Assembly (NCBI RefSeq): GCF_015461835.1
Contig: NZ_JACOPX010000002.1
Location: 124,001 to 188,000, forward strand
Direction of reading: 5' to 3'
DNA from: Pseudomonas neuropathica
GTDB taxonomy: Bacteria; Pseudomonadota; Gammaproteobacteria; Pseudomonadales; Pseudomonadaceae
DNA: 64,000 nt
The position numbers and the translations under genes were made by a program. Shown in pieces: positions 13,844 to 63,591 of this stretch; the first letter of the stretch is position 1; every line of letters begins with the position of its first letter. The notes under the pieces are model-generated. The model was given only the letters and a program-made list of their open reading frames with translations, ran no database searches and had not been told where the DNA came from.

Positions 13844-15013
13844 ATGAATACCGCCGTCAACGCCAACGTAGTGCATGAATCCGAAGCCCAGCGCCAACAC
13901 GCCCGCGTGAAAATCCCGGCCAAACTGCGTTTCTTCGGCCCTGACCGGACGCCGGTCGAAGCGCGGGTCATCGACCTGTCGGCCGGTGGTCTGGCCTTCA
14001 ACGCCGGGCAACTGCCGCTGACCATCGGCCAGGTGTACAAGGCGCGTCTGCAATTTGTCATCGACAACCTCGGCATCGCCATGGACGTTGAATTGCAGGT
14101 GCGTTCCTTCGACCGCCAGACCGGCCGCGCCGGCTGCCAGTTCCAGAATCTGGAACCGCAGGATATTTCCACCCTGCGCCACTTGATCACCTCGCACCTG
14201 GCCGGCGACATCGTCAGCATCGGCGAAGTGCTGGCGACCCTGCAGCGCGACAACTTCACCAAGGCGCGCAAGGTCAAGGACGGCGGCTCCGGCATGACTC
14301 CGTTCGGTCGCCTGAAAGCAGTGACGTTCAGCGCCGGCATCTTCGCCGTTGGCCTGGTCGCGGCGGGTTTCATTTTCAAATCGGTGTACAGCATGTACTT
14401 CGTCAGCCACGCGCAGGCCGGTCTGGTCAGCGTGCCGGGGATGAACATCACCATGCCGCGTGACGGCACCGTGCAGAGCCTGGTCAAGTCCGACGGCGTT
14501 GCAGCGAAAGGCGCGCCACTGGCGACCTTCAGCACCAGCATGCTCGACGTGCTCAAGGGCCATCTGGAAGAAGATCAACTGTCGCCGGCCAAGGTTGAAG
14601 AACTGTTCGGCAAGCAAATGACCGGCACCCTGACCTCGCCGTGCGATTGCACCGTGGCCCAGCAACTGGTGGCTGACGGTCAGTACGCCAGCAAGGGCGA
14701 TGTGATCTTCCAACTGGTGCCGCGCAACACCCAGGCCACCGTCGATGCACGCTTCTCCTATCGCCAGTTCGGCGACGTGCGTCCCGGCACCCCGGTGAGC
14801 TTCCAGATTGCCGGCGAAGACAAGACCCGCACCGGCAAGATCGTCAGCAGCACCAGCCTGAAGAGCGCCGACCTGTCCTCCGACATCCGCGTACAGATCC
14901 AGCCTGACGAGCCGCTCGACAGCAGCTTGGCCGGCCGCCCGGTGGAAGTGAACAGCGACCGTGGCCCGAACCTGAACTGGCTGATCGACAAAGCCATGGC
15001 TGCCGGTCTTTAA
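13844..15013 (+). CDS. alg44: Alginate co-polymerase Alg44 (PilZ domain, c-di-GMP receptor)
   Basis: 389 residues. The N-terminal PilZ domain has the c-di-GMP-binding residues R17 and R21 (RQHAR) and D44 and S46 (DLSAGG), in the numbering known for P. aeruginosa Alg44. A membrane segment at about 160-185 leads to a periplasmic HlyD-like domain thought to bridge to the export porin. c-di-GMP binding switches on polymerisation by Alg8. GGAAAT precedes the ATG. Confidence 0.96.
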   Translation: MNTAVNANVVHESEAQRQHARVKIPAKLRFFGPDRTPVEARVIDLSAGGLAFNAGQLPLTIGQVYKARLQFVIDNLGIAMDVELQVRSFDRQTGRAGCQFQNLEPQDISTLRHLITSHLAGDIVSIGEVLATLQRDNFTKARKVKDGGSGMTPFGRLKAVTFSAGIFAVGLVAAGFIFKSVYSMYFVSHAQAGLVSVPGMNITMPRDGTVQSLVKSDGVAAKGAPLATFSTSMLDVLKGHLEEDQLSPAKVEELFGKQMTGTLTSPCDCTVAQQLVADGQYASKGDVIFQLVPRNTQATVDARFSYRQFGDVRPGTPVSFQIAGEDKTRTGKIVSSTSLKSADLSSDIRVQIQPDEPLDSSLAGRPVEVNSDRGPNLNWLIDKAMAAGL

Positions 15014-15028
15014 GTCGAGGATATGCCT

Positions 15029-16528
15029 GTGACTACTCCTATCTTCAACACACCGCCGACCCTGTGGGAGCGAGCTTGCTCGCGATGGGAGCGCCGCGGT
15101 TTGTCTGATGTACCGAGTTGCCTGAATCGCGAGCAGGCTCACTCCTACATGGGAACAGTGTGTGCCTTGGCATTGGCGGTGAGTCTGGCCGGTTGTGCCG
15201 GCCTGCCCGATCAGCGTCTGGCCAACGAAGCGCTCAAACGTGGCGACACCGCCACCGCTGCGCAGAATTATCAGCAACTGGCCGATCTCGGTTACAGCGA
15301 AGCGCAAGTCGGCCTCGCCGATATCCAGGTCGACAGCCGCGACCCGGCGCAAATGAAACAGGCCGAAGCGACTTACCGCGCCGCCGCCAGTGTTTCGCCG
15401 CGTGCTCAGGCCCGTCTCGGCCGCTTGCTGGTGGCCAAGCCGGGTTCCACCGAAGCCGAGCACCACGAAGCCGAAAGCCTGCTGAAAAAAGCCGCCGCCA
15501 ATGGCGAAGGCAACACGTTGATCCCGCTCGCGATGCTGTACCTGCAATACCCGCACAGCTTCCCGAACATCAACGCTCAGCAGCAGATCGATCAGTGGCG
15601 CAAATCCGGTTACCCGGAAGCCGGTCTGGCGCAGGTGCTGCTGTATCGCACTCAGGGCACCTACGACCAGCACCTGGATGACGTGGAAAAGATCTGCAAA
15701 ACCGCGCTCAACACCACCGACATCTGCTACGTCGAACTGGCCACGGTCTATCAGAAACGTGCCCAGCCAGAGCAACAGGCCGAGCTGATCAAGCAGATGC
15801 AGGCCGGTTACAGCCGTGGCACCGTCACCGCACAACGCGTCGATTCCGTCGCCCGTGTATTGGCCGACTCGACCCTCGGCAAGACCGACGAGAAAACCGC
15901 GCAGTCGCTGCTGGAGCCGATCGCTCCGGGTTACCCGGCGTCGTGGGTGACCCTCGCACAACTGCTCTACGACTACCCGGAACTGGGCGACGTCGACCAG
16001 ATGATGAAGTACCTCGACAACGGCCGCGCCGCCGACCAGCCACGCGCCGAGCTGTTGCTGGGCAAGCTCTACTACGAAGGCAAACTGGTCCCGGCCGACG
16101 CCAAAGTCGCCGAAGAACATTTCCAGAAAGCCGTTGGCCGCGAAGTCGCCGCCGACTACTACCTCGGCCAGATCTATCGCCGTGGTTACTTGGGCAAGGT
16201 CTATCCGCAGAAGGCCCTCGACCACCTGCTGACCGCTGCGCGCAACGGCCAGAACAGCGCCGACTTCGCCATCGCCCAGCTGTTCTCCCAAGGCAAAGGC
16301 ACCAAGCCCGACCCGCTCAACGCCTACGTGTTCAGCCAATTGGCCAAAGCACAAAACACCCCGCAAGCCGATGAGCTGGCGACCACCCTCGCCGCGCAAC
16401 TGCCGCCCGAGCGTCTGGCCGAAGCCCAGCGTCTGCTGCAACAAGAGCAAGCCAGCCGTGGCGCTCTGAACCCGAACACGCTGCAACTGCACGCCCTGCA
16501 AGAAGAAGACGGCGAGGAAAAATTATGA
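15029..16528 (+). CDS. algK: Alginate export lipoprotein AlgK with repeat-derived N-terminus
   Basis: AlgK is an outer-membrane-anchored lipoprotein of TPR/Sel1 repeats that helps assemble the AlgE porin and links it to the periplasmic scaffold. The body from [22 protein letters not shown] onward is typical. The N-terminus is not. After [13 protein letters not shown] a family B palindrome (15063-15150) is read through in frame and adds about 28 residues rich in Arg and Glu, before the hydrophobic core [14 protein letters not shown]. This puts the lipobox cysteine at residue 56 instead of about 20-28. The GTG at 15029 was chosen over the ATG at 15023 because GAGG lies eight bases upstream. An ATG inside the repeat at 15148 could give a short signal peptide without positive charge. 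The length of 499 exceeds P. aeruginosa AlgK (475). Confidence 0.9.
15063..15150. repeat. Family B inverted repeat inside algK
   Basis: TGTGGGAGCGAGCTTGCTCGCGAT on the left and ATCGCGAGCAGGCTCACTCCTACA on the right, about 40 bases apart, lie wholly inside the 5' coding part of algK and are open in its frame. Confidence 0.87.
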
Positions 16529-32082: not shown

Positions 32083-32160
32083 TATCGCGAGCAGGCTCAC
32101 TCCTACAGGGGATCTCCGGTGTGACACAGATCCAGTGTAGGAGTGAGCCTGCTCGCGATG
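32083..32160. repeat. Family B inverted repeat between convergent genes
   Basis: ATCGCGAGCAGGCTCACTCCTACA faces TGTAGGAGTGAGCCTGCTCGCGAT, filling the gap between the DUF4440-like gene and the convergent efflux adaptor gene. Confidence 0.86.
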
Positions 32161-35471: not shown

Positions 35472-35563
35472 CCTGTAGGAGTGAGCCTGCTCGCGATGGC
35501 GATTTCATATTCAACATTTCTGTCGACTGATACGCCGCTATCGCGAGCAGGCTCACTCCTACA
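35472..35563. repeat. Family B inverted repeat in the efflux cluster
   Basis: CTGTAGGAGTGAGCCTGCTCGCGATGGCG faces its inverse ending ACTCCTACA. It lies between the outer-membrane factor gene and the FUSC pump gene, both on the minus strand. Confidence 0.86.
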
Positions 35564-46161: not shown

Positions 46162-46367
46162 TGCTCAATGACCTGTGTAGAACCGCAACGGATGCGAATG
46201 ACTCGCAGTTTCAGTCACTACACGGATGGGGCAGATGTTTACCTCACCAACATTTGAAAATTATTTTTTGTGGTGTTCGATCGGGCGCCATCGCGAGCAG
46301 GCTCACTCCTACATTTGGAATGCGTTCCCCTGTAGGAGTGAGCCTGCTCGCGATGGCTTTAGCCGCC
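46162..46367. other. Spacer between fecR-like and receptor genes, likely ECF promoter side
   Basis: This 206-base gap contains a family B repeat next to the fecR stop and then an AT-rich 120-base stretch directly upstream of the receptor. The sigma factor encoded upstream probably starts receptor transcription here. I could not assign a clear -35/-10 pair. Confidence 0.4.
46287..46358. repeat. Family B inverted repeat
   Basis: GCCATCGCGAGCAGGCTCACTCCTACA faces its inverse ending CGCGATGGC. It lies ten bases from the stop of the fecR-like gene and separates it from the receptor gene in the same direction. Confidence 0.86.
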
Positions 46368-60907: not shown

Positions 60908-60935
60908 CTGTGGGAGCGAGCTTGCTCGCGAATGC
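60908..60935. repeat. Single family B arm
   Basis: CTGTGGGAGCGAGCTTGCTCGCGAAT without a facing partner arm nearby, so a solitary REP-like unit. Confidence 0.7.
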
Positions 60936-63500: not shown

Positions 63501-63591
63501 TTGTAGGAGTGAGCCTGCTCGCGATAGCGGTAGGTCAGTCAGATCATTAGTGCCTGACACACCCTCATCGCGAGCAGGCTCGCTCCCACAG
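63501..63591. repeat. Family B inverted repeat between convergent genes
   Basis: TTGTAGGAGTGAGCCTGCTCGCGATAGCG faces ATCGCGAGCAGGCTCGCTCCCACA. It fills the gap between the SirB1 gene and the convergent MFS gene. Confidence 0.86.

Follow-up and report, generated by a model that had tools for sequence, protein, structure and literature searches.

A REPIN lying in frame in the signal-peptide n-region of Pseudomonas AlgK, probably carried as a tolerated passenger

The alginate operon is present in the window (the whole 64,000-nucleotide stretch of Pseudomonas neuropathica DNA that was analyzed), and within its algK gene a REPIN, an inward-facing pair of REP sequences, lies in frame between the start codon and the hydrophobic region (h-region) of the lipoprotein signal peptide. 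Most of the Pseudomonas relatives examined have such an element at the same spot, in numerous versions; thus, the element looks like a long-tolerated passenger rather than a fresh injury. The explanation that we favor, and consider probable, is that the REPIN sits in a disposable part of AlgK, the n-region of its signal peptide, where it is translated, tolerated, and repeatedly refilled. REPINs are inverted REP pairs, a kind of element thought to be mobilized by RAYT transposases. The probable point of entry into the AlgK n-region is an ancestor shared by much of the P. fluorescens complex, and the element would since have been carried along as a translated passenger that is neutral for the cell. 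The ribosome would begin at GTG 15029, cross the element, and then reach the h-region and lipobox; all of the extension would stay on the signal peptide, and signal peptidase II would cut at Cys56. Signal peptidase II discards the extension that lies ahead of the lipid Cys of a lipoprotein. Because the AlgK extension would be removed in this way, its sequence should hardly matter. Selection would mainly hold the frame open and keep the h-region and lipobox intact, while the REP arms may be swapped for those of other REP families, through either conversion or fresh insertion, with the genome's hundreds of copies as the source, and the spacer drifts.

The features of the locus, in window coordinates, are:

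13844..15013, + strand: alg44 (PilZ/HlyD-like), taken from the list of open reading frames (ORFs), with Pfam PilZ and HlyD_3 domains; directly 5' of algK and named from its position and domains
15017..15021, + strand: GAGGA, a Shine-Dalgarno-like motif read from the sequence, preceding the algK start
15029..15031, + strand: GTG, the likely algK start codon, given its spacing to GAGGA; the other candidate is the ATG at 15023-15025
15064..15085, + strand: left REP arm, core CGAGCTTGCTCG
15086..15126, + strand: REPIN spacer, 14 residues in translation
15127..15148, - strand: right REP arm, core TGAGCCTGCTCG, a variant of the left core
15149..15151, + strand: internal ATG put forward as an alternative start; not conserved (Met in 70/132 inward copies)
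15158..15193, + strand: h-region and lipobox residues of the signal peptide, ahead of the Cys
15194..16525, + strand: mature AlgK, beginning with the lipid Cys (NF038194; the alignment to the PDB 3e4b chain begins one residue past the Cys)

The algK gene spans GTG 15029 (or ATG 15023) to 16528. Its product scores 811 bits against the AlgK equivalog model NF038194 of NCBIfam (cut-off 700) and matches PDB 3e4b with an E of 5.6e-253. In P. aeruginosa, AlgK is described as a lipoprotein of the outer membrane, and deleting it compromises the secretion of alginate (passages of PMC9734138). The reading frame is already open from the alg44 stop codon onward. Translation probably starts at GTG 15029; the upstream ATG is missing in 9 of the 196 rows of the alignment of relatives that have a GTG at the equivalent place. 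Numbered from this GTG, the lipid Cys is residue 56, in agreement with the first-pass annotation of this DNA. The n-region, which that annotation had described as about 40 residues rich in Arg and Glu, is 43 residues long, and its net charge is +1. An h-region (best 10-residue hydropathy 2.69) and a lipobox, LAGC, follow.

The element itself has the structure of a REPIN: two inverted REPs, each with a GTRG head and a palindromic core. The inward arms, 15064-15085 and 15127-15148, lie between the N-terminal dozen residues and the hydrophobic core, as had been proposed from the sequence alone, and the inverted stretches that contain them (15060-15086 and 15126-15152) are 85% complementary and 39 nt apart. 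With up to 3 mismatches allowed, the REP head pattern is found 13 times in the window versus 0 in 100 shuffles. In the genome the degenerate head has 1065 matches (534 on the plus and 531 on the minus strand; 0 for the reversed-pattern control), and 22 inward pairs occur in 463 kb, as expected of a high-copy REPIN. Other REPs of the same family within the window form inward pairs at 1584-1673, 35474-35563, and 63502-63590 and outward pairs at 32084-32159 and 46290-46354, and a single one lies at 60910-60931. The genome also contains two matches above the cut-off to PF01797 (RAYT-type Y1 transposase), at G000:C49:41713-42027 and G000:C48:38908-39219 (L340 and L341), either of which might serve the algK REP family. 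REP-like reading frames lie within ~200 bases of the second of these matches. The location of the algK element is inside a reading frame and not extragenic; we still call it a REPIN because an extragenic site is the usual location of these elements, not part of their structural definition. Its heads, GTGG and GTAG, place it outside the CGTC-tagged Rickettsia repeats, and a search of the plasmid collection gave no match.

The algK 5' ends of relatives came from two sources: 80 named records, the top 80 among 249 relatives, and 200 genomes out of the 398 searched in the genus, own genome included, for which the best AlgK matches were taken first and more distant ones were then chosen by hand. 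Some genomes enter from both sources, and identical sequences were merged. From 281 loci, 280 of which are algK, 276 were kept and 242 are distinct; the rows dropped are L002 (not algK), L207 (partial), L214 (frameshifted), and L272 and L280 (first mature residues unaligned). In L214 (G034:C1:2057208-2058583) algK is split across two frames within the mature part, through a frameshift or a sequencing error. Among the 241 distinct 5' ends that were classified, by peptide and motif together, 185 have a REP-derived extension in the n-region (8 of these lack the strict motif), another 2 are extended at length but contain no REP, and 54 have no extension, apparent deletions of the insert included; since the sample is weighted to near relatives and partly chosen, these fractions are not genus frequencies. 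By the strict motif, 177/242 have at least one REP in the n-region, comprising 133 inward pairs, 38 single REPs, and 6 outward pairs. Named carriers include P. koreensis DSM 16610, P. jessenii DSM 17150, P. reinekei MT1, P. moorei, and P. migulae NBRC 103157. The insertion is therefore not peculiar to this genome, a point on which the first-pass annotation is not borne out. Relatives without the element, which it had proposed to look for by alignment, do exist, and the assembly error that it had named as a possible refutation is very unlikely because many separate assemblies show the insert. Apparent in-frame losses of the insert are seen in L060, L094, and L129, that in L060 lying between two CTGTG repeats. 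In L109 (P. mandelii 6A1) an N stands near the algK start where relatives have the REPIN, probably marking an assembly gap at the repeat; this row, with its N inside the element, was left out of the tree described below.

The type of REP found at this one site has turned over. Arm cores of several types occupy the algK slot (CGAGCTTGCTCG, CGAGCCTGCTCG, CTGGCTTGCCAG, CGGGCTTGCTCG, CGGGCTTGCCCG, CCAGCCTGCTGG, and CCGGCTTGCCGG), and the two cores of a pair are non-identical in 48 of the 133 inward pairs. Spacers that resemble one another closely are found with differing arms, a pattern suggesting replacement of the arms around an inherited spacer. The architecture varies as well: the repeat is in another frame in 17 rows, what appears from flanking remnants to be a newer REPIN is nested in an older one in 6, outward pairs or their remnants are present in 9, and three rows at ~72-74% AlgK identity carry separate inserts of their own. 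On a FastTree phylogeny of the mature part there are at least 39 changes of architecture and at least 21 changes of presence (the 2 long rows with no REP scored as present), counts that recombination at algK may inflate, this being a single-gene tree. Five of the rows with outward pairs or remnants (L163, L195, L204, L205, and L271), from distant lineages, have in common a stem, ALDR(E/G)Q, after EC or ECx; the insertion behind this stem may be older than the inward one. Because one slot has stayed filled for so long and has been occupied anew, it could be of use or be a target that insertions prefer, which would count against the favored reading.

Alternatively, the element might be retained for what it does as RNA or DNA between alg44 and algK, such as forming a hairpin that slows ribosomes, setting AlgK dosage, or marking a point of mRNA decay, with coding being incidental. 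We regard this as unlikely. The occupation of the slot by different REP families and the identity of the two cores in 85/133 copies are compatible with it, as is the predicted folding: the window element folds at -66.3 kcal/mol versus a shuffle mean of -47.6 (z -4.4), and L003, with arms of two REP families, folds at -62.1 kcal/mol (z -2.5). A hairpin, however, is expected of any REPIN, and several relatives have apparently lost the element. Moreover, the predicted hairpin runs from ~15060, ~31 nt past the GTG, with the start codon outside, and the predicted openness near the start is 0.48 (sd 0.06) in the 133 inward-pair rows versus 0.51 (sd 0.07) in 33 motif-free rows. Because the hairpin leaves the start free and openness is alike, no block of initiation is indicated, contrary to the earlier suggestion of a hairpin over the translation start; the folding model leaves room for effects on elongation or decay.

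The translated passenger that we favor calls for a frame that stays open, and this is what is observed. In the inward copies the AlgK frame is stop-free in 133/133, versus 72/133 and 22/133 for the other two frames. When the 22 inward REPINs from 463 kb of the own genome (algK's copy included) are read on both strands, the AlgK frame is stop-free in only 4/44 readings and both stop-free and in register in 3/44; the other two frames are stop-free in 31/44 and 27/44. The algK rows share ancestry, and thus 133/133 does not represent 133 independent trials and yields no simple probability. Still, the difference from the genomic readings makes it probable that the algK REPIN is translated from an upstream start. 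Indeed, all 185 REP-bearing rows, whatever the frame, orientation, or nesting of the repeat, have an upstream start codon and one open frame to the Cys. It had been proposed instead that the real start is the ATG at the end of the repeat (given as 15148; its position is 15149), which would make the REPIN an untranslated leader. An ATG is present there in 70 of 132 inward copies, and PMC3733652 cautions, in a passage that includes P. putida, that numerous REPs annotated as the 5' ends of genes may really belong to the leader. In the other 62 copies, however, the codon specifies Arg (20), Lys (17), Ile (11), Thr (11), or Ser (3), and 11/132 lack any ATG, GTG, or TTG from the repeat to eight codons before the Cys. 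By eye, no clear Shine-Dalgarno motif lies at the usual spacing from 15149, a signal peptide begun there would have no Lys or Arg, and the upstream frame is open far more often than in the genomic sample. We consider a start at 15149 very improbable.

A passenger of this kind should be under little selection as a peptide, and the sequence comparisons suggest that the REP-encoded residues are hardly constrained. The spacer shows no third-position excess across 103 ungapped copies, and 52 of 205 spacer changes between close pairs are synonymous (25% versus the 25.6% expected for random changes). For the 30 pairs whose mature AlgK differs by 0.05-0.1 at third positions, the differences are 0.148 in the spacer, 0.085 in the arms, and, within the mature part, 0.085 at third and 0.006 at second positions. 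In the widest distance bin the spacer difference is 0.244 versus 0.330 for third positions; because the spacer lags behind at larger distances, it is not wholly free. Two of its residues are nearly fixed (Gly 101/103 and Pro 96/103). Downstream of the insert the signal peptide is preserved. A lipobox, [LM]xGC, is found in 242/242, and the mean h-region hydropathy is 2.63 where the extension is long (185 rows, 2 of which lack a REP) versus 2.54 where there is no long extension (52 rows). The idea that the repeat has remade the export signal of AlgK is thus right for the n-region, most of which the repeat supplies; the h-region and lipobox are intact.

It is highly unlikely that the n-region was lengthened as an adaptation for targeting, in the manner of the extended signal peptides through which export is slowed or redirected. 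The insert is widespread, and the mean n-region charge is +3.2 with a long extension versus +1.3 without (L158, L231, L245, and L281 being left out of this count), as such an extension might have; yet the charge is 0 or below in 4/185 extended n-regions, close-pair spacers are without amino-acid constraint, losses occur, and the Cys lies anywhere from residue 35 to residue 86 (18 to 34 without a long extension, starts being located by pattern). Damage to AlgK by the insertion, or its attenuation, is likewise highly unlikely for this strain; a 43-residue n-region with a net charge of only +1 speaks for it, but relatives, named species among them, share the architecture and have an intact mature AlgK, and the operon ORFs adjoining algK are uninterrupted. 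Loss, attenuation, and tolerance had all been envisaged as possible effects; judged from the sequence, tolerance would fit best, and the intact mature part, h-region, and lipobox argue against loss.

According to PMC3686654, REPs lie almost only between genes; in SBW25, 14 of 1067 REP 16-mers overlap genes, and REPINs are described as extragenic (PMC3116915). The algK element resembles the P. fluorescens REPINs of the latter account in its two inverted REPs, GTRG head, palindromic core, hundreds of copies per genome, and RAYT-type genes, but it differs from them in its place within a gene whose frame is kept open. Intragenic GTAG/CGTC REPs, as surveyed in the main text of PMC3733652, also lie wholly within ORFs, many coding for 20-30 residues and some N-terminal. 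They are gene-by-gene cases, however, and most of the N-terminal ones are suspected of being untranslated, whereas in algK one site in one gene is filled across many species and the open frames speak for translation; algK may itself be in that survey's list. The Rickettsia palindromic elements (RPEs), as outlined in the review PMC10969869, are likewise palindromes tolerated in frame in protein genes. The algK insert behaves as such an in-frame palindrome, being absent from 54/241 5' ends and leaving one open frame with the Cys in 185/185 REP-bearing rows, but RPEs belong to another repeat family and host and are spread over many unrelated genes rather than returning to one signal peptide. Intragenic REPs and RPEs are already known; what looks new is that one signal peptide is occupied again and again, by REPs of switching families. 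In the open-access literature searched, no paper on REPs in algK was found; the passages searched of PMC3390384 do not mention algK, and those of PMC4392301 hold nothing on coding REPs.

More broadly, signal-peptide n-regions might be a coding safe harbor in which REPINs can persist, because the encoded peptide is thrown away after export, and can be refilled by new REP families or even nest within a secretion gene that is otherwise conserved, provided that the frame remains open, AlgK having been colonized several times independently in Pseudomonas. We put this forward tentatively, as a reading that may hold. REPs are called extragenic almost by definition, and algK is a site where REPINs seem to be translated across a species complex. 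The switching of arm families under an open frame offers a natural test of REPIN movement, conversion, and tolerance in coding DNA. For annotators, a long AlgK N-terminus is probably real, and the length and sequence of a lipoprotein n-region can be nearly free.

REP sites were also scanned for open frames in 485 kb of the own genome and in 13 further stretches, some of them around the RAYT matches. Most other candidates for a REP within an ORF are, in our own reading, intergenic REPs running into a neighboring frame; a few, for example L370, are undecided as in-frame REPs, and only one, in cobN (TIGR02257, 1373 bits), is convincing. This second in-frame REPIN lies mid-gene on the minus strand, at G000:C1:196509-196595 (L323:18509-18595). 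The same cobN site has an in-frame REP pair with other arms in one further genome (G011) and a longer insert without a REP motif in another (G005), and it is shorter in two (G004 and G010).
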